Assembly (NCBI RefSeq): GCF_000349845.1
Contig: NC_020829.1
Coordinates: forward strand, 1,116,001-1,180,000
Source: Pseudomonas sp. ATCC 13867
GTDB lineage: Bacteria > Pseudomonadota > Gammaproteobacteria > Pseudomonadales > Pseudomonadaceae
Length of the DNA: 64,000 bases
Direction: 5' to 3'
The notes under the pieces were generated by a model. The model was not told where the DNA came from. It saw only the letters and a list, made by a program, of their open reading frames with translations, and made no database searches. The position numbers and the translations under genes were made by a program. This document shows positions 37,440-48,117 of the stretch, piece by piece. How positions within the stretch are numbered: position 1 is the stretch's first letter; the number at the start of each line of letters is the position of its first letter.

Positions 37440-38249
37440 ATGCATCTCACGCGTCGGCCCCTGTATGCCGCTTTCTGTCTTCCAGCCTGCCTGCTGGCGG
37501 CGGTAGTCGCTGCCGAGCCGCGTGCCGAACTGAGCAGCCCGAGCGCCGGCTGGCGCTATTCCGGCCTGACCGATGACCTCAATGCCCCGCGCGTGGCCTA
37601 TCCCACGCCGCCCATCGACCGCGGCGGCGTTCGCGGCCGCAGCCTGATCGAAGGTCACCTGCGCGAACTGTCCGGCGTCGACCGCGCCCAGCGCCTGGTG
37701 GTCAACGGCAATCCACTGCCGCTCTACACCGACGCCGAAGGCCGCTTCGTCCGTCCCTACAACTTCGGCGCGGGCAGTAATAGCGTCGCGGTGAGCAGCG
37801 CCGAGGGCCAATCCCTCAAGCGCATCCAGTTCTACGAAGCCAACCGCAGCCGGTTGCCGCCGAGAATCCGCCTGGCGCTGGGGTGGAACGACCCCAAGGC
37901 CGAGCTCGATCTGCATATCGTCACCCCGGACGGTCAGCATGCCTTCTGGGCACACCCGCGGCTGAGCAATGGCGGCGCCCTCGACCCCGATGGCGTGGAT
38001 GGACCGGGGCCGGAGATGTTCACCATGACGGCTCCTCTGCATGGCACGTACCTGGTCTACGTCAACTACTGGGGCAACCTGAACAGCCAGGGTTACAACT
38101 TCCAGGCCGGCAGCAATGAGCAGGACGTGATCACCGCCGAGATCAACCTGGTGTTCAACGAGAACAGCGTGAACGAGAAGCGCGAGACCTTCGTGGTGCC
38201 CATGCGCACCATCGGCGATCTGGTGCTGGTGAAGACTTTCAACTACTGA
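37440..38249 (+). CDS. magA: MagA, DUF2135 (YfaP-like) secreted protein
   Basis: 269 residues with a signal peptide (about 24 residues) and a C-terminal DUF2135 domain from about 140 (RIRLALGWNDPKAELDLHIV, then GTYLVYVNYWGN, ETFVVPMRTIGDLVLVKTF). The same layout recurs in magF, so the operon is bracketed by two paralogues. AAGGA lies 7 bases before ATG 37440. The preceding 166-base gap is AT-rich and likely holds the mag promoter. In P. aeruginosa magA-F (PA4492-PA4487) is regulated through RetS/GacA/Rsm. The molecular role is unknown. Confidence 0.85.
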   Translation: MHLTRRPLYAAFCLPACLLAAVVAAEPRAELSSPSAGWRYSGLTDDLNAPRVAYPTPPIDRGGVRGRSLIEGHLRELSGVDRAQRLVVNGNPLPLYTDAEGRFVRPYNFGAGSNSVAVSSAEGQSLKRIQFYEANRSRLPPRIRLALGWNDPKAELDLHIVTPDGQHAFWAHPRLSNGGALDPDGVDGPGPEMFTMTAPLHGTYLVYVNYWGNLNSQGYNFQAGSNEQDVITAEINLVFNENSVNEKRETFVVPMRTIGDLVLVKTFNY

Positions 38250-38287
38250 ATCCGCCCCTCGCAGGGATGACACGGGACAAGCGATCC

Positions 38288-40039
38288 ATGAGCGACAACA
38301 CGCCCTCCAGCAGCCAAGACAGTACGCCCACGCCACCCGCCGAACAGGCCCCGCGCCGTGGGCCGCTGATCGCCATCGGCGTGGTTGCCGCCATACTGGT
38401 CGCCGGCGGCCTCGCCCTGGCCTTCGGCCTGATTCCCGCCTTCCACTCGGTACCGGTAGGCACCCTGGAGGCGCCGGAGACTCCGGAGGCGCTGCTCGAC
38501 CTCAAGCGCCCCGACGCCCTGATCGAGAGCGCCTCGCTCAGCCAGTTGCCCAGGGCGGTGCTGGAGGTGCCGCTGCTGCGCGACGTGCTGACCGAGGACT
38601 TCGTCTTCTACTACGAGAACAATGGCGACCGCCTGGGCCTGACCGGCACCCTGCGGCGCATCGTCTACGAGCACGACCTGACCCTGAAGGACAGCCTGAT
38701 CGAGGAACTGCTCGACCAACCGGCCCAGGTCGCCCTGTGGCGCGGCCCCGACGGGCGCCTGCGCGATTTCCTGGTGGTGCTGCGCCGTGGCGGCCTGGCC
38801 AAGCTGCTGGAGCCGCTGGCGAAGGTCGCGGCGGACGATACCCAGTTGAAGCAGGTGGGCGAGATCCAGGTCGGCGGTGCCGCGACCGCCGTCTACCGTC
38901 TGCGCTATGGCGCCGAGAGGAGCGTGCTGTTCGCCTCCCGTGGCGACCAGATGCTGGTGCTGTCGAACCCGAAGATGCTCTTCAGCGATGCCGGCGACGA
39001 AGGCCTGGGCGAGCCGAACGTGGCGGTCGCCAAGGATCTCGCGACGCTGCTGGAGGGACAGCAGGCGTTCGCCAGGCAATTCGGCCTGGAGCCTTCCGCC
39101 GAGCTGAAACAGCGCATTACCCTGGGCGCTGGCGCCCTGGCGATGGGTTACCAGCGCTTCATCCCGAGTTTCGCCGGCGTGCGCTTCGAGCAGGGCAAGG
39201 ATGGCTGGCACAGCTACCTGGCGCTCAATGAAGTCGCCCGCCAGCCGGAACTGGATTTCACCCCGGTATGGCAGGCCATGCCGATGGGCGCCAGCGCCTG
39301 CGTGGCGCTGCCGGTCACGCCCGGCCTGTACGACAGCCTGCTGGTGCGCCTGGGCGCCGAACAGAAGATGGCCACCTCCTTCTCCGAGCACCTGAGCGGC
39401 GCGGCCGGCCTGTGCTGGTACTCCGAATCGCGCCTGCATTCGCCGCTGCTGGTGGTCAAGCTCGACGCCCCGGCCAGCCCCGAACTGGACGAGGAGCTGG
39501 GCAAGCTGTTCGGTAGCCTGGTGGGTTCCTTCGAGGCCAGGGTGGGGGAGGGCGCGTTCCCGGTGGACAGCCGTCCCGAGGGCGACGGTCGCCTGTGGCA
39601 GCGCCAGGTCAGCTCGCGCTTCGGCCAGTATCCGGCGAGCGAGGCGGAGAACCCCGACCAGGTGAGCGGCAACGGTTTCTTCCGCGTCAGCCTGCTGCGC
39701 GACGGCAATACGCTGCTGTTCTCCATCGATGACAAGCTGCTGGACAAGGCGCGCAACACCCTGGCCAAACGCTTCCCGCCGCTGGCCGACGTGCTGCCCA
39801 GGGATGTCCAGGTGCCGGCCTACCTGGCGCCCAATACGCTATCCGACCTGCTGCAGCGCGAGACGATGGACAGCCTGCCGCGTGACATCGAACCGGTGTT
39901 CCGCAACGCCGCCGATACCTTGCTCCTGCCGCGCCTGAAGATCCTCGCCACGCAAGGGGCCTATGCCCTGACGCTGCCGTCCGGCAGCGAGCCCAGCGGC
40001 GACTGGCAGTGGCAGCCGCTGCAGTGGAAGGCGCTGTGA
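38288..40039 (+). CDS. magB: MagB, DUF2138 (YfaA-like) inner-membrane protein
   Basis: 583 residues with a Pro/Ser-rich cytosolic tail, one membrane helix (about 24-48) and a large periplasmic part of the DUF2138 family ([20 protein letters not shown], then [20 protein letters not shown]). The family is found next to bacterial alpha-2-macroglobulins (E. coli yfaA next to yfaS). MagB probably anchors MagD-containing complexes at the inner membrane. The start at 38288 is preferred over an ATG at 38267, whose GGG is too close. Its TGA overlaps the magC GTG. Confidence 0.87.
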
Positions 40040-40668
40040 TCGGACGCTCCCTGATCCTGCTCGCCGGGTTGCTGGCCGTTGCATTGGCCCAGGCCGCCGA
40101 GCCCGCGCTGGATACCCGGCAATCGCAGGTGTTTCGCGCCTGGTTCGTGCGCATCGCCGAGGAACAGTTGCGCCGCGGCCCGAACCCGCGCTGGTACCAG
40201 CAGGACTGCGCCGGCCTGGTGCGCTTCGCCGCCAACGAGGCGCTCAAGGTGCACGACGCCAAGTGGCTGCGCGCCAACGGCATGTCCAACCGTTACCTGC
40301 CGCCGGAAATGAGCCTGAGCGATGACCAGCGGCGTCTGGCGCAGAGCTGGCAGCAGGGCGGCGGCCAGACCGGCCCCTATGTCAATGCGATCAAACTGAT
40401 CCAGTACAACAGCCAGCTCGTCGGCCGCGACCTCAACCAGGCGCGGCCGGGCGATCTGATTTTCTTCGACCAGGGCGATGACCAGCATCTGATGATCTGG
40501 ATGGGCCGCGACATCGCTTATCACACCGGCACTCGTACGGCGACCGACAACGGCATGCGCTCGGTCAGCCTGCAACAACTCATGACATGGAAGGACACCC
40601 GATGGATACCCGACGAATCCAATCCCAACTTTATCGGCGTGTATCGCTTGTCCTTCCTCGCCCGATGA
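40036..40668 (+). CDS. magC: MagC, DUF1175 (YfaT-like), NlpC/P60-like fold candidate
   Basis: 210 residues with a signal peptide (about 20 residues). The start is GTG 40036, overlapping the magB stop. DUF1175 proteins accompany bacterial macroglobulins. The motif [12 protein letters not shown] (Cys58) and the later [17 protein letters not shown] (His151) have the order and spacing of the Cys and His of NlpC/P60 and CHAP amidases. A peptidase-like activity is therefore possible, but it is inferred from two motifs. Its stop overlaps the magD ATG. Confidence 0.85.
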
Positions 40669-43600
40669 GCGCGCTGCGCGGGATTGCCGCTGCCCTGGCC
40701 TGTGCCGGCCTGTTCGCCGGCATGCCCGCCGCCGTGCAGGCGGACGACAACCTGCCGGCGAGCAACTACTCGCCGATGACCGGGGAGTCGTTCTTCCTGC
40801 TCGCCGACTCAAGCTTCGCCTCCGACGAAGTGGCCAAGGTGCGTCTGGAAGCGCCGGGCCGCGATTATCGCCGCTTCCGCATGGAGCCCTACGGTGGCGC
40901 CGATATCCGCGTCTACCGCATCGACCAGCCGCTGGACTTCCTCAAGCGCCAGAAGAACCTGCATCGCGTGGTGTCCGAAGGGCAGTTCAAGGGCGAGGGC
41001 CTGTCCAACACCCTGGCCTATCTGTGGGATAACTGGTATCGCAAGTCGCGCCGGGTGATGCAGCGGGCGTTTTCCTACGAATCGCGCAAGCAGGTCACCG
41101 AAGTGGTGCCCGAGCTGAAGATGGGCGACACCATCGCTGCGCCGACGCCCTATGACGCGCCGCCGCAGTACGCGCCGATCCCCGGCCTGCCGCTGGTCAG
41201 CCAGTTCCGCTACCCGCTGTGGGACGCCAAGCCGATCCAGCCGCCGAAGGACGTGACCCTGATGGGTTCGTCCAGCGAGTTCATCAATGTCGCGCCCGGC
41301 AACGTCTACGTGCCGCTGGGCAAGCTGAAGCCCGGCCTGTACCTGGTGGAAGCGCTGGTCGGCAAGTACCGCGCGACCACCGTGGTGTTCGTCTCCAACA
41401 GCGTCGCGGTGAGCAAGATCGCCGGCAACGAGCTGCTGGTGTGGACCGCGCGCAAGCATGAAGGCACGCCGGTGGGCGGCGCCAAGGTGCTGTGGACCGA
41501 CGGCCTGGGCGTGATGAGCAGCGGCAGCAGCGACGCCGACGGCTTGCTGCGCCTGCAGCACGTCAGCCCCGAGCGCTCCTTCGTGATCGGCGAGGACGAG
41601 GAGGGCGGCGTCTTCGTCTCCGAGAACTTCTATTACGACAGCGAAATCTACGACACCAAGCTCTATGCCTTCACTGACCGCCCGCTCTACCGTCCGGGCG
41701 ACTGGGTGTCGCTGAAGATCGTCGGCCGCGAGTTCAAGAACTCCCGCGAGTCGCAGGCGCCGCAGAGCGCGCCGCTGCGCCTGTCGGTGATCGACGCCGC
41801 CGGAACCACGCTGCAGACCCTTGACCTCGAGTACGACGCCAGGAGCGGCACCAACGGCCGCTTCCAGCTGCCGCCCAACGCCGTCGCCGGCGGCTACGAG
41901 CTGCGCTTCGACTACCGCGGCCAGACCTACAGCAGTGCCTTCCGCGTCGCCGAGTACATCAAGCCGCACTTCGAGATTTCCCTCGACCTCGCCAAGCCGG
42001 ACTTCAAGACCGGCGAGCCGGTAAAGGGCAACCTGATCCTGCTCTACCCGGACGGCAAGCCGGTGGCCAATGCGCGCCTGGAACTGAGCCTGCGCGCCCA
42101 GCAGCTGTCCATGGTGGACAACGAGCTGCAGTACCTCGGCCAGTTCCCCGTGGAGCTGTCCAGTGCGCAGATCACCACCGACGACCAGGGCCGCGCCGCG
42201 CTGGAGCTGCCGGCGGCGGAGAAGCCCAGCCGCTACATGCTCAGCGTGTTCGCCAGCGATGGCGCCGCATACCGCGTGAAGACCAGCAAGGAAATCCTCA
42301 TCGAGCGCGGCGCCGCGCGCTATCGCGTCAGCGCGCCGCAGCGCTTCAGCGCCGCCGGTGACAAGGTCGAGTTCAGCTACGCCGCCGAGCAGCAGACGCA
42401 GATCCAGCCGACCATCTACCGCTGGCTGCGCCTGGAGGACCGCAGCAGCGGCGACGGCGCGGTGCAGGGCGGCACATTCGCCATCACCTTCGACAAGCCC
42501 GGCACCTACAGCGTCGAACTGCGCGACAAGGCCGGCCAACTGCTCGGCGGCACCGGCCACTCGGTCAGCGGCGACGGCGTGAAGGCCGTGCCAGGCACGG
42601 TGGAAATCGTCCTCGACAAGGCCGAGTACCAGGCCGGTGAAGAAGCCCTGGCGCTGATCACCTTCCCGGAACCGGTGGACGATGCGCTGCTGTCGCTGGA
42701 GCGCGACAAGGTCGAGGCCACCGCACTGCTGTCCAAGGGCGGCGACTGGCTGAAGCTGGAGAAGCTCAACCCGACCCAGTACCGCGCGCGCATCCCGGTG
42801 AAGGCCGAGTTCTCGCCTAACCTGACCTTCTCCGTGCTCTACACCCGCAGTGGCGACTACAGCTTCCAGAACGCCGGCATCAAGGTCGCCGTGCCGCAGG
42901 TCGACATCGCTGTCAGCACCGACAAGGAGCGCTACGAACCGGGCGAGACGGTCACCGTCAACCTCGACACCGCCTACGCCGGCAAGCCCGTCTCCAGCCA
43001 CCTCACCGTCAGCGTGGTGGACGAGATGATCTACGCGCTGCAGCCGGAGATCGCCCCGGGCATCGACCAGTTCTTCTACCACCCGCGCCGCAACAACGTG
43101 CGTACCAGCGCCAGCCTGGCGTTCATCAGCTACGACGTGGCACTGCCCGGCACACCCAGCGCACCCGGCCGCGCCAACCGCAGCGAACGTGGCGTGAAGG
43201 TGCTGGAGCGCCCGCGCCGCGAGGAAGTCGACACCGCCGCCTGGGAGCCGGAACTGGTCACCGACGCCAACGGCAAGGCGCAGTTCAAGTTCCGCATGCC
43301 CGACTCCCTGACCCGCTGGCGCATCACCGCCCGCGCGATGGACGACCAGGGACAGGTCGGCCAGAAGAAGCAGTTCATCCGCTCCGAGAAGCCGCTGTAC
43401 CTGAAGTGGAGCGGGCCGAAGCGCTTCCGCACCGGCGATGTGCCCGACCTCGGCCTGTTCGTGTTCAACCAGGGCGAGCAGGACGCCAAGGCCGAGCTGC
43501 TGATCCGCGCCAACGGCGAGGAGAAGACCCAGGCGCTGGAGCTCAAGCGCGGCGTCAACTACATCGCCTTGCCGAAGCAGCCGCTCAGTGATGGCGACTG

Positions 43601-45212
43601 GAACGTCGAACTGCGCCAGGACGGCCAGGTGCGCGACAGCCTCGGCGTGCACTTCAGTCTGGTGGCCGACAGCTGGCAGGTCCTGCAGTCCCGGCCGCTG
43701 CAGGTCAACGCGCAGAACACGCCGCTGCAGCTGCCGGCGGACGCCCGTGATGTCAGCCTGCGCCTGGACGACAGCGCCCAGGCCCTGCTGCGCGGCAACC
43801 TCGATGCGTTGCTCGACTATCCCTGGGGTGGCGTCGAGCAGACCGCCAGCCAGTTGCTGCCGCTGAGCGTCGCCTACCCGATGCTGGCGGGCGGCGAACC
43901 GCGCGTGCGCGATCGCCTGCGCCTGATCATGCAGACCAGCCGCTTGCGCCTGGTGCAGATGGCCGGCCCGGATGCCTACTTCACCTGGTGGGGCGGCGAA
44001 GACAACGACGCCTTCCTCACCGCCTACGCCTACTACGCCGACTGGTACGCCAGCCGCGCGCTGGAAATCCAGCTGCCGGCGGACCACTGGCAGCGTGTGC
44101 TGGAGCTGTACTCCGCGCGCGCCAGCGCCACGCCGCCGTTGCAGCGCGCGCTGATCCTGGCCTTCGCCCGCGACATGCAGTTGCCGGTGCAGACCCTGGT
44201 CAGCGGCCTGCTCACCGACCTGGAGAAGGCTGGCAACGGCGAGGCGGCGAAGTCCGTGAATGATGCCGACGGCAGCCTGGTCATGGGCCAGCCGGACTCC
44301 GAACTGGGGTTGGCAGTGGCCCGCGTGCTGAGCGCCGGTCTCGCCGAGCAGAGCAAGGTCGCGCTGCCGCCGGGCTTCGCCAGGCAACTGGACGCTGCGC
44401 GGGTGAAGCTGAATACCAGCGAGCAGCCCTTTGCCCGCGCGGTGCAGCTCTACAGCGGTTCGCTGGATGCCAACCGCGCCCGCGCGCTCCTGCTGAGCCT
44501 GGCGCCGCAGCAATCCACCGTCGAACGCGCCCTGGCCCTGGCCTGGATGCAGCGCGCCGTGGCCGCGGCACCGGCCGCCGAGCTGCCCAGGCCGGTGGCG
44601 AGCTGGAAGGAGAGCCACAGCACCTCCGGCGATGCCTTCTGGCAGTGGCAGGGCAAAGGTGTGCCGGCGCAGCTGGACCTGAGCGCCGCGCCGTCGCGTC
44701 CGCTCAACGCCTCCGTCACCTTCCGCAGCGCCGAGGCGCCGGCCAGCCAGTTGCCAGTCAGCATCAAGCGCCGCCTGCTGCGCCTGGTGCCGGGTGACGA
44801 GGCGTTCAAGTTCAATGCCGAGGAACTGGGTGACAAGCCGCTGTCCAGCGACGAGCTGTACCTAGACGAGGTGACCCTCACCAGCGAGCAGGCGCAAGCC
44901 CTGCGCTACGGCATGCTGGAAGTGCCGCTGCCGCCGGGCGCGGACGTCGAGCGCACCACCTGGGGCCTGCAGATCAGCGGCCTGGGCGGTGTCGAGGCGA
45001 CCAGCCTGGAGCGTGCGCGCAATGAGCCGGGTGACCTGTTCTACGGCGTGCCGGTGGATACCCTGGCTGGCGAGTTGCGTTTCCGCCATCTGGTCCGCTT
45101 CTCGCAGAAGGGCGAGTTCGTCCTGCCGCCGGCGCGCTACCAGCGCCTCTATGCGCCGCAGGAGCAGGCGCTGGAGCAGAATCCGGCCCTGGCGAAGATC
45201 AAGGTTCAGTAA
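40665..45212 (+). CDS. magD: MagD, bacterial alpha-2-macroglobulin without thioester
   Basis: 1515 residues. ATG 40665 overlaps the magC stop (ATGA) and gives a signal peptide ending AAVQA-DD, with no clean lipobox. Macroglobulin-like (MG) domains fill the first two thirds ([37 protein letters not shown] is the classic A2M-core block). A thioester/complement-like helical domain follows. At the thioester site the sequence is [16 protein letters not shown], where Gly1056 replaces the reactive Cys of C-x-E-Q. It therefore cannot trap proteases covalently, as in type II (YfaS/MagD) proteins. In P. aeruginosa MagD is periplasmic, is processed and binds proteases. Two longer in-frame starts inside magC are less likely. 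Confidence 0.95.
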
Positions 45213-45215
45213 TCG

Positions 45216-46859
45216 ATGCGCGCGCGTCTGGCCGGGCTGATCCTGCTGTTGCCGCTGAGTGCCCTCGCGGTGTCCGGTTCGCAAGAGCAGGCGCAACTGG
45301 CCTGGCGCACGGCGCAGGGTGACCAATTGTTGCGGCTCGGGCCGCAACGGGTGCAGGGGCGTGAGCCATTGCCGGCTGACCTGCGCGCGCCGCTGGGCAG
45401 TCTGTGGAAGCTGTTCGTCTATGCCTGGCTGAACGATACCGGCCAGCAGGAACCGGCCTATCGCTGCCGGGGCGAGGACAAGGAAGAAGTCTATTGCTGC
45501 ACGGCGGGACAGAGCATCGAGCGCGACGCCGCGCTGGTGAAGTCCTGCGGCCTGTACTTCCAGCCGCAGCGCCTGGGTATCGATGGTGCGATCTGGCAGC
45601 AGTACTGGCAGGCGCGGCACGCCCCGGCCTGGATCGCAGAACTGGACAAGCTGGCGCCGCAGACCGAAGTCCCGGTCGCCGAACTGCTCGACCAACTGCA
45701 GCACCTGCCGGCACAGGATCAGGCGCGCAAGGTGCTGCTCGACGTCAGCCTCGCCGCCGACGAGGGGCGCGCGCCGGCCGCGCTGGGTGGACGCCTGCGG
45801 GTGAAGACCTGGAGTTGGGAGGAGGGTGGTCAGCGTGAAGGAGGTTTTGCCGGCTGGCTGGTCGACGGCGCGCCGCTCTGGGCGCGTGGGCCGGGTACCA
45901 GCAAGACGGTGCTGGCCAGGTACGGCAACGCCATCGGTGCCGCGCTGCCGGCTCCGTGGCCCAGCGATCCGGGCCGTTGCGTGGAGGTCAGCCTGTTCCG
46001 CCGCTATCCGCTGAAGGAGGTCTACGACGCGCGCAACCAGCCTGCCGCCGAAGGCGTGCTGGAAGGCCGGCAGAACCTGTTGTTCGCCAATGGCGTTCGG
46101 CTTGACGTGAACAGCAACGGTGATCTGTTCCTTGAACGCGGCACGCAGGGGCCGTACTTGACCGCTCGCCTGTCCCGCGAGGAATACGTCGCCCGCGTGC
46201 TCGACCGCGAGGCTTCCGCCACGCCGCCGGAAGCGGCCAAGGCGCTGGCGGTGACCATCCGCACTTATCTGTTGCAGAACGGCGCGCCGCATGGCGACTG
46301 CCTGAGCATCGATGACAGCAGTCAGCGCCAGCGCGTGGCACCGCGTCCGGCCAGCGAGGCGGCGCGGGGTATCGCGGCCTGGACCGCCGATCTGGTCCTG
46401 GCTGGCGGCAGCGTCACCTACCACTCGGACGAGGCGGGGCCGTCGAAGCTGTCCTGGCGCGACGCCCAGGAACAGGCCGCCAGGGGCCTGCGCTACGACG
46501 CCATCCTCGCCCGTGCCTTCCCGCGCACCAGCCTCAGCCGCTGGGGCAACCCGAGCGCTGCCTGTCAGCCCTTGCCCGAGGCCGAGCGCTGGCTGCAAGC
46601 GCAGCGCCGCAGTTGGCGGCCGCGTCTGGACGGTGAGCCGGGCTACGAGGAAGTGCAGTCCTTCGCCGTGTGCCGTCTGGGCTCCGGCCGGCCTTACGTG
46701 GACCGTGAACGCCAGCGTATCTTCGTTCGCGGCCTGTACTCGCTCCAGGACCGCCTCGACCTGACCCACGAATACCTGCACCTGGCGCTGCAAGCCCACC
46801 CCAATGGACACGACGAGGGCTACGTGGAAAGCCTGGCCCGCCGTCTGATACTGGAATGA
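45216..46859 (+). CDS. magE: MagE, DUF2300 (YfaQ-like) with SxxK and SpoIID-like motifs
   Basis: 547 residues with a signal peptide (about 18). Near the N-terminus PLGSLWKLFVY offers an S-x-x-K pair (Ser62, Lys65) like penicillin-binding proteins. A Ser-Cys-Gly at 110-112 could sit at the second motif. At about 319-355 the block YVARVLDREASATPPEAAKA leading to LAVTIRTYLL resembles SpoIID/LytB. The family is fixed in macroglobulin operons (E. coli yfaQ). It begins three bases after magD and its stop overlaps magF. Enzyme activity is inference; a wall-binding role is equally possible. Confidence 0.85.
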   Translation: MRARLAGLILLLPLSALAVSGSQEQAQLAWRTAQGDQLLRLGPQRVQGREPLPADLRAPLGSLWKLFVYAWLNDTGQQEPAYRCRGEDKEEVYCCTAGQSIERDAALVKSCGLYFQPQRLGIDGAIWQQYWQARHAPAWIAELDKLAPQTEVPVAELLDQLQHLPAQDQARKVLLDVSLAADEGRAPAALGGRLRVKTWSWEEGGQREGGFAGWLVDGAPLWARGPGTSKTVLARYGNAIGAALPAPWPSDPGRCVEVSLFRRYPLKEVYDARNQPAAEGVLEGRQNLLFANGVRLDVNSNGDLFLERGTQGPYLTARLSREEYVARVLDREASATPPEAAKALAVTIRTYLLQNGAPHGDCLSIDDSSQRQRVAPRPASEAARGIAAWTADLVLAGGSVTYHSDEAGPSKLSWRDAQEQAARGLRYDAILARAFPRTSLSRWGNPSAACQPLPEAERWLQAQRRSWRPRLDGEPGYEEVQSFAVCRLGSGRPYVDRERQRIFVRGLYSLQDRLDLTHEYLHLALQAHPNGHDEGYVESLARRLILE

Positions 46860-47680
46860 TCGTCATGAAACTCGCCCACGCCTTTCGCCTGTCCCTGCTC
46901 GCCAGCCTGTTGCCCTGGGGCGTGCAGGCCGCCGAATCCGCGATCCATTTCGACACGCCGGTGGCGGGCTGGCGCGCGGGCGATGGCGACAAGGCCGACT
47001 TCCGGCAGACGGTGAACTACCCGGCTTCGTCGGTGAATAGCCGCGCGGACCAGGCCGGAACCGCACGCATCCGTGGAGAGATTCGCTCGCTGCCCAAGGA
47101 CAACAAGGACCCCGCGCGGCTGGTGGTGAATGGCGTGGCCATGCCGCTGAAGATCGATGCGGAGGGTGGTTTCGACCGGCCCTTCGCGTTCCCGGCGGGC
47201 ACCAACAGTGTCGAGGTGATCTCGCCGGAGGGACAGCAGCGCAAGCGCGTGCAGTTCTACCACGGTGGTGGCGGCGGGGAGGTGCCGGCCAAGCTGCGAG
47301 TATTGCTGTCCTGGGACTCCGACAACACCGACCTGGACCTGCACCTGGTGACGCCCGACGGCGGGCATGTCTGGTATGGCAACCGCTCGCTGCCCAATGG
47401 CGCCGCCCAGGATGTCGACGTGACCACCGGCTACGGCCCGGAAATCATCGCCAGCCCGACCCCGCTCAAGGGCCAGTACCTGGTCTACGTGAACTACTAC
47501 GGCGGTGGCTGGAGTTCGGATGAAAGCTCCGGCGACGTCAACGCGGCCAAGCCGCTGACCACGGCGCAGGTGACTATCGTCACGGAGGAGGGAACGGTGA
47601 ACGAGAAGCAGGAGTCCTTCCTGATCCCGATGCGCCAGCCGGGTGAGCTGACGCTGGTGAAGCGGTTCAGTTATCCGTAA
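46856..47680 (+). CDS. magF: MagF, DUF2135 (YfaP-like) secreted protein
   Basis: 274 residues from the ATG at 46856 that overlaps the magE stop; an ATG three codons later is also possible. A signal peptide (cut near WGVQA-AE) precedes a domain similar to MagA along its whole length: FDTPVAGWRAG versus LSSPSAGWRYSG, SWDSDNTDLDLHLVTPDG versus GWNDPKAELDLHIVTPDG, and a shared GQYLVYVNYYG-type strand. It is the last gene of the mag operon. Function unknown. Confidence 0.87.
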   Translation: MIVMKLAHAFRLSLLASLLPWGVQAAESAIHFDTPVAGWRAGDGDKADFRQTVNYPASSVNSRADQAGTARIRGEIRSLPKDNKDPARLVVNGVAMPLKIDAEGGFDRPFAFPAGTNSVEVISPEGQQRKRVQFYHGGGGGEVPAKLRVLLSWDSDNTDLDLHLVTPDGGHVWYGNRSLPNGAAQDVDVTTGYGPEIIASPTPLKGQYLVYVNYYGGGWSSDESSGDVNAAKPLTTAQVTIVTEEGTVNEKQESFLIPMRQPGELTLVKRFSYP

Positions 47681-48117
47681 GGGCGCAACACCGCTTTTGG
47701 AGGCGTATTGCCTACTTGCTCTTGATCTTGATGACTTCCAGAGAAATCTCCGCGCACTCCGGAGCGCCCCTTCAGGAGGCCGAGTGGAGTCGGAGTTTCA
47801 GGGGTTGAGCGGCATGGATGCCGCGAGAGCCGCGATGGGCCAGGGATGGCCCTTCGCGGCGTGCCCCTGAAACTCCGATGGAACGAGGGAACCCCGACGG
47901 AGTCGGGGCCGGATGCAGGGGCAAGACCTTTGCCTCCTTTGGGGTGTTTGCCAAAGGAGGTCGCCCGAGGGGGCGAAACAAGAAGCCCCAGCGCACGCCG
48001 AAGCGGCGCAGAAGCACCCAAACAAAAGCGAAAAACATCGCGGAGAAGCTCCGCTCCTACGAGAGCTACTCCGAGCTCCGGACCAATGACTACGACTCTC
48101 GCCTATGGGGTGCAGGT
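47681..48117. repeat. 437-base gap with an array of hairpins (dispersed structured element)
   Basis: There is no convincing gene. From 47790 to 48054 the sequence is almost continuous secondary structure. A 14-bp perfect outer stem (47791-47804 with 47864-47877) encloses a 7-bp hairpin (47809-47815/47818-47824) and a 13-bp hairpin with one mismatch (47829-47842/47847-47860). Then follow stems at 47892-47908 (7 bp), 47933-47960 (10 bp, 8-base loop), 47961-47976 (6 bp), 47996-48008 (5 bp) and 48040-48054 (6 bp). The end (GCTCCGCTCCTAC) resembles a REP arm. A minus-strand open frame of 88 codons (47772-48038) just translates these stems. It lies between convergent genes. Confidence 0.7.

Follow-up and report, generated by a model that had tools for sequence, protein, structure and literature searches.

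The closest described counterparts of the gene cluster analyzed here come from Pseudomonas aeruginosa and Escherichia coli. The Mag operon of P. aeruginosa (PA4492-PA4487), from which the gene names magA to magF are taken, consists of the same six genes in the same order and encodes an alpha-2-macroglobulin (A2M) without a thioester, MagD, that traps TEV protease non-covalently in vitro and binds MagA, MagB and MagF, with MagB fixing it at the membrane (PMC5764988). Recent work showed that the operon protects P. aeruginosa from certain peptidoglycan-targeting effectors of type VI secretion systems (T6SS), magD acting chiefly against VgrG3 and giving limited protection from Tae1 (PMC12663445); the least understood part of the operon is MagE, published as chaperone-like. 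The yfaA-yfaT-(A2M)-yfaQ-yfaP locus of E. coli follows the order of magB-C-D-E-F, has no magA before the magB homolog, and encodes, in YfaQ, a protein with all the MagE motifs tested. Its macroglobulin gene, unnamed in the record, is yfaS, and the thioester site of the product reads GGVINT. YfaQ has been predicted to be bipartite, with a transpeptidase-like and a SpoIID-like part and a Sec signal, and cells lacking it are wider, a phenotype resembling that of envelope mutants including mepK, mepS and nlpI (PMC12282094); the word 'macroglobulin' is absent from the main text of that paper. Here we show that the locus of Pseudomonas sp. ATCC 13867 at positions 37440..47680 of a 64,000-nucleotide stretch of contig NC_020829.1 (the window) is this known operon with a misread partner: in addition to domains resembling wall enzymes, MagE contains a C-terminal HExxH domain (H518-H522) that was missed in an earlier prediction made from the DNA sequence (the original prediction).

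The window MagE, 68 % identical to that of P. aeruginosa, comprises the following parts.

45216..46859, + strand: magE, DUF2300 protein with three domains (Pfam DUF2300 252.2 bits and SpoIID 29.3 bits; AlphaFold model)
45273..45953, + strand: MagE residues 20-246, class D beta-lactamase/BlaR1-sensor-like in the predicted structure (S62-x-x-K65, S110-C-G, K197-T-W)
45984..46550, + strand: MagE residues ~257-445 (approximate limits), SpoIID-like by Pfam and by alignment to SpoIID chains, with E332 at the position of the catalytic Glu
46551..46856, + strand: MagE residues ~446-547, HExxH domain, from alignment rows, database matches and predicted secondary structure

In the predicted structure, H518-E519-x-x-H522 lies on a helix (residues 510-524) and E534 and E538 on another (534-546). 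Conservation was assessed in 80 fetched loci, the best 80 of 330 confirmed and mostly from Pseudomonas. A MagE open reading frame (ORF) was seen in 73 of them (cut by the contig end in L076 and L110); six of the other seven loci are on contigs that end before magE would be reached, and the last, L085, in which magD is split into two ORFs, has room for magE yet lacks it. The 73 aligned rows, 72 of them distinct because the identical pair L036/L106 was retained (L171 is the contig of L057), fall into 18 clusters when grouped at 80 % identity and into 8 at 60 %, and extend down to 35 % identity with the window MagE. Throughout these rows S62, K65, S110, K197, T198, E332, H518, E519, H522, E534 and E538 never vary, and a further MagE from the Bdellovibrionota sample keeps all of them. 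H528, considered as the third metal ligand on account of its metzincin-like spacing, was rejected, being Tyr in 4 of the 73 rows and Phe in L081. HExxH is also kept in all 240 listed protein matches (120 to long and 120 to short MagE), and the long ones agree in every motif tested; the lists hold the best 120 matches (of 1052 for long MagE, 143 for short MagE and 963 for MagC), so that this agreement is partly a result of selection. The domain may be a gluzincin-like metallopeptidase that would bind zinc, with E538 or E534 on the following helix as the candidate third ligand. The passages on P. aeruginosa MagE in PMC5764988 name no HExxH domain, and no literature on DUF2300 was found in a search that left most subscription papers outside.

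The distribution of the HExxH domain suggests that it could be the core of the protein. Short MagE proteins of ~125-160 residues, consisting of this domain alone, are encoded in otherwise normal B-C-D-E-F operons of Magnetococcales and of metagenome-assembled genomes labelled Gammaproteobacteria and Burkholderiales; others were found in matches named Iodobacter, Competibacteraceae, Serratia microhaemolytica and Schekmanbacteria, in a search that admits only query-like lengths. All 120 listed short matches (the best 120 of 143) keep HExxH-x11-E-x3-E, and a crude test of run length finds a hydrophobic N-terminus in 72 of 109 short rows. Plasmids of Meiothermus taiwanensis and Deinococcus KNUC1210 contain, in the same order, a three-gene set encoding a DUF1175 protein, an A2M and an HExxH protein. 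The product of the third gene is a ~200-residue protein with a hydrophobic N-terminus and the motif HExxH-x12-EG[LM]A, for which Pfam yielded sub-threshold matches only. In a single hhalign comparison, the MagE HExxH domain matched this pair of proteins with a score of 34.0 (probability 66 %, E 5.6e-5), E538 being paired with the Glu of EG[LM]A, and none of 100 column shuffles scored as high (maximum 22.7), which supports homology of the two. The HExxH domain thus seems to be the oldest and most conserved piece of MagE, and, by this comparison, the wall-enzyme-like domains seem to have joined it later. We infer this polarity rather than observe it, because long MagE is also present in two genomes of the Bdellovibrionota sample and the basal branches of the MagD tree are uncertain.

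The other two parts of MagE resemble enzymes of the cell wall. The AlphaFold model (mean predicted local distance difference test, pLDDT, 90.4; predicted template modelling score, pTM, 0.86) gives residues 20-246 the penicillin-recognizing fold of class D beta-lactamases and BlaR1 by structural comparison. The profile comparison is weaker: hhalign of this domain with ordinary penicillin-binding protein (PBP) domains of Pseudomonas relatives reached 13.8 % probability, with the correct register and a higher score than any of 60 shuffles, and comparisons with single PBP classes gave less (0.1-4.9 %, up to 5.5 %). The predicted structure settles the fold. Of the three boxes of such enzymes, SxxK is present (S62 and K65, 73 of 73 rows), whereas SxN/SxV is replaced by SCG in all 73 rows and K[ST]G by KTW in 71 and KTF in 2. 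Since the latter two boxes are altered in every row, the PBP-like part may not perform ordinary transpeptidation. The Pfam SpoIID profile matches residues 317-372 with 29.3 bits (cut-offs: SpoIID 23, NLPC_P60 23, DUF2135 22) and was matched by 87 of 87 MagE members at E up to 1. E332, invariant in 73 of 73 rows (a strict pattern missed it in L170, where the alignment shows it to be kept), aligns with E101 of Clostridioides difficile SpoIID, as counted from the printed alignment; the comparison covers the profile and the catalytic Glu, and the C. difficile protein has zinc-site residues at C140 and H145. Six cysteines (C84, C94, C95, C111, C450 and C486) are likewise invariant in 73 of 73 rows. 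Pfam DUF2300 matches MagE twice (45471-45824 and 46446-46805 of the window; 122 and 144 bits), once in the class D-like and once in the HExxH part, suggesting that the Pfam model mixes two domains; a single repeated domain was rejected, since the best BLASTP alignment between the dissimilar halves had E 0.067 over 18 residues. The SxxK and SpoIID-like features thus bear out the original prediction. Its general label of degenerate wall enzymes is not supported, as the catalytic positions are invariant and the alterations are confined to two boxes of the PBP-like domain, SxN and KTG.

The other genes of the operon and the thioester site of MagD are as follows.

37440..38249, + strand: magA, DUF2135 protein with an N-terminal hydrophobic stretch (ORF; Pfam 53.9 bits, cut-off 22)
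38267..40039, + strand: magB, DUF2138 protein with one N-terminal hydrophobic segment, a membrane anchor by reading (Pfam 799.5 bits)
40009..40668, + strand: magC, DUF1175 protein, NlpC/P60-like (longest ORF from GTG 40009; Pfam DUF1175 205.1 bits, NLPC_P60 23.5 bits)
40665..45212, + strand: magD, alpha-2-macroglobulin (Pfam MG2, bait region, A2M and bMG10)
43821..43841, + strand: remnant of the MagD thioester site, PWGGVEQ by sequence reading, with Gly replacing the Cys of relatives
46856..47680, + strand: magF, DUF2135 protein resembling magA (Pfam 55.6 bits, cut-off 22)

All six ORFs are on the + strand and tightly coupled. The gap between magA and magB is 17 nucleotides; magC, whose longest ORF begins at GTG 40009, is likely to start at GTG 40036, which shares bases with the magB stop (GTGA); ATGA overlaps join magC to magD (40665) and magE to magF (46856); and three bases separate the magD stop (TAA, 45210-45212) from the magE start (ATG 45216). 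These junctions and the two DUF2135 paralogs, MagA and MagF, agree with the original prediction, and its statement that all products are exported or membrane anchored is backed as far as N-terminal hydrophobic stretches, read by eye, can do so. MagD, 94 % identical to that of P. nitroreducens 381H, is the single PF00207 (A2M) match in its own genome. By sequence, the PDB gave no match for MagE alone, MagB (E up to 1) or MagF, and Rfam gave none in the window at gathering thresholds. Directly after magF, at 47760-48020, lies a dispersed repeat of ~260 bp, overlapped by a spurious-looking ORF and present in the genome in 10 near-full-length copies (that of the window included; 76-100 % identity) and at 9 partial places; it may be a mobile or palindromic element of small size.

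MagC has a marginal NLPC_P60 match (23.5 bits against the cut-off of 23; E. coli YfaT, with 21.3, falls below), and the window protein matches the PDB structure 7bk8, which is MagC, at E 9.5e-118 in a sequence search. The title of the corresponding publication calls the protein NlpC/P60-like (FEBS Lett 2021), and MagC is published as interacting with peptidoglycan. Cys67 (40207-40209), His160 (40486-40488) and His172 (40522-40524), numbered from 40009, do not vary in any of the 37 rows. Among the best 120 matches, strict patterns found the Cys box in 110, the His box in 117 and YHxG in 120, and the printed cases among the misses (10 and 3, respectively) differ beside the Cys and His and keep both residues. 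MagC is accordingly NlpC/P60-like, as had been supposed. The original prediction would have been refuted by MagC and MagE without an amidase, PBP or SpoIID fold; structure 7bk8 and the predicted class D/BlaR1 fold of MagE 20-246 point the other way. The view that the enzymatic nature of the partners was undescribed is in part superseded by the publications on MagC (FEBS Lett 2021) and YfaQ (PMC12282094), yet the published strands on MagD, MagC, YfaQ and T6SS protection are not connected with each other in the passages considered here. Separately, the Deinococcus D7000 plasmid (L165, 1-10582) has a DUF1175 gene with no A2M gene beside it; this gene begins 197 bases after the gene of anhydro-MurNAc kinase (anmK), with murQ ~9 kb upstream on the opposite strand; anmK and murQ are peptidoglycan-recycling genes.

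Bacterial A2Ms of type II are defined by the lack of CxEQ and by the six-gene operon (PMC5764988), and the window MagD, with PWGGVEQ in the six-gene mag operon, has both properties. Across mag-type operons, the absence of CxEQ is not a family trait: of the 78 distinct loci with a readable motif (the identical contigs L028/L055, L029/L056 and L036/L106 each counted once), the sequence is PYGC or PFGC and then xEQ in 23, and contains GG in 55. Nine further MagD ORFs lack the motif, namely six fragments, one with PYGGVEE (L113) and two from Enterobacteriaceae with PYGGVVN. Carriers of the Cys include Ralstonia, Cupriavidus, Rhodanobacter, Methylobacter, Bacteriovorax, Magnetococcales and two named Pseudomonas isolates. 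Because four changes at the Cys/Gly site suffice on a 33-row MagD tree and both Deinococcota plasmid copies retain the Cys (YPYGC[ST]EQT), the loss of the thioester looks secondary. In L085, L122 and L170, magD appears as two ORFs, which may be real breaks or assembly errors.

The operon recurs beyond chance. Its gene order is repeated in the fetched relatives and in E. coli, the exceptions being L074 and L088, which show no MagF, L054, with a B-like ORF on the opposite strand, and L085. In L033, L063, L072, L078, L102, L109 and L120, a magA-like DUF2135 gene stands after magE beside magF and not before magB. Part of magD has a DNA match in 5334 of 5426 E. coli genomes. DUF1175 and DUF2300 exceed the cut-off in the identical 15 of 398 genomes of the phylum and the identical 2 of 229 genomes of the class (G009, with a DUF2300 match at E 7e-4 and five stops, and G469, below the cut-off, were set aside from the domain counts), and among 14 named control genomes only Thermotoga maritima has DUF1175 without DUF2300.

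Several other systems invite comparison. Like the endospore formers' SpoIID, MagE has a profile match above the cut-off and the aligned Glu (E332/E101), but the similarity is weak (29 bits) and the mag partner is NlpC/P60-like, not SpoIIP. BlaR1 and MecR1 are sensors that combine a penicillin-binding domain with a metalloprotease. MagE differs from them in its additional SpoIID-like domain and in having no M56 match in Pfam, nor does the list of 15 families for 87 members include M56; the operon includes no BlaI. Members of the complement C3/A2M superfamily share MG and bait domains with the window MagD and include relatives with CxEQ, the Cys of which is absent in the window protein. Type I A2Ms likewise stand beside a protein of penicillin-binding fold, PBP1c (PMC5764988), but this is a different partner gene: MagE adds the SpoIID-like and HExxH parts and has no PBP1c-type Pfam match.

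The reading that we favor, with a probability of roughly 45 %, is that the operon encodes a membrane- and wall-linked macroglobulin trap licensed by the HExxH domain of MagE. Its oldest recognizable core would consist of MagC, MagD and the C-terminal domain of MagE, three exported proteins encoded side by side, with MagC as a peptidoglycan-binding protein of NlpC/P60 fold, MagB as the anchor of the complex, and MagA and MagF as proteins that bind MagD. In Pseudomonas, enterics and several other lineages, the class D/BlaR1-like and SpoIID-like domains that MagE also has may place it or sense the wall by binding glycan or stem peptides and perhaps turning these over slowly. Under the control of the wall state, the HExxH domain would cut and thereby license MagD, which would then close on intruding proteins, including peptidoglycan hydrolases, near damaged wall. 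The position of the HExxH domain in the operon, its invariance, the effect of magE deletion on MagD and the protection against peptidoglycan-targeting effectors support this without proving it. The link between macroglobulin and wall made in the original prediction is in any case plausible; compare the sensitization of P. aeruginosa to peptidoglycan-attacking effectors upon loss of magD (PMC12663445). A number of observations weigh against a trap licensed by MagE. In the earlier work, MagE was apparently cytoplasmic, a chaperone or signal-peptide role was preferred for it, gel filtration revealed no stable MagE-MagD or MagC-MagD complex, the 100-kDa form of MagD clearly depends on MagB, and the legend of Fig. 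6 and the text disagree (PMC5764988). Furthermore, magD gave no protection against TseH or B. thailandensis, and the single-gene T6SS tests in the accessible passages concern magD (PMC12663445); a review describes DUF1175 as inactive and peptidoglycan-binding (PMC10318531); the KT[WF] and SCG changes may block transpeptidation; and the structure-match list (VIA-align), filled by the N-domain of MagE, yielded no match for the SpoIID or HExxH parts, an absence that is uninformative.

That the operon repairs or remodels peptidoglycan, with MagC and MagE as active wall enzymes (peptide cleavage, lytic transglycosylase, acyl transfer) mending or clearing damage while MagD traps proteases independently, as in the pairing of type I A2M with PBP1c, appears doubtful to us. 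The invariant catalytic positions of MagC and of the SpoIID-like and SxxK parts would fit, as would the A2M-PBP1c pairing and the repair idea already in print (PMC5764988), the importance of magD against certain peptidoglycan-targeting effectors (PMC12663445), the wider cells upon loss of YfaQ (PMC12282094) and the closeness of the Deinococcus plasmid DUF1175 gene to anmK, with murQ in the neighborhood. However, some operons keep the HExxH domain alone, without PBP-like or SpoIID-like part, the operon has no synthetic transglycosylase among its Pfam matches, and both the altered KTG and SxN boxes and the reported inactivity of DUF1175 (PMC10318531) speak against such catalysis. The same two points, together with the non-covalent trapping of protease by MagD in vitro (PMC5764988), would suit a scaffold of pseudoenzymes, in which the wall folds serve only to bind peptidoglycan, keeping a protease inhibitor close to the wall's inner face with no catalysis. 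We regard this as unlikely, given that nucleophile and metal-type residues are invariant across the 8 clusters at 60 % identity, beyond what a pure scaffold needs, and that HExxH persists in every one of the listed matches.

The 2018 proposal that MagE acts on MagD as a chaperone, in the cytoplasm or in export, with its domains unused as enzymes, draws on the higher-mass forms and altered amount of MagD in the magE deletion and on the cytoplasmic location reported (PMC5764988). It seems very unlikely in view of the hydrophobic N-terminus seen by eye in the window MagE and found in most of the short rows, the Sec signal predicted for YfaQ (PMC12282094), the six invariant cysteines, as in many exported proteins, and the secreted-enzyme fold predicted for residues 20-246. 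Beyond the licensed trap itself, the mag module might be a bacterial analog of complement, although we consider this quite improbable: MagE as a dedicated, wall-sensing metallopeptidase, laid out like BlaR1 with a sensor of penicillin fold and a protease, would cut MagD upon attack on the wall, and the trap, by thioester in ancestral forms and sterically in Pseudomonas, would close on enemies other than proteases, such as peptidoglycan hydrolases. If true, this would account for the protection that a protease inhibitor gives against VgrG3 and Tae1.

For the family as a whole, the frequency of CxEQ in mag-type macroglobulins outside the well-studied Pseudomonas and enterics calls into question the division of bacterial A2Ms into types I and II by the thioester. 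The association of an HExxH domain with DUF1175 and a macroglobulin spans Proteobacteria and two Deinococcota plasmids. Read as a wall-enzyme-like protein on a probably ancient HExxH domain, MagE becomes a candidate for the protease that processes MagD, with specific residues to mutate.

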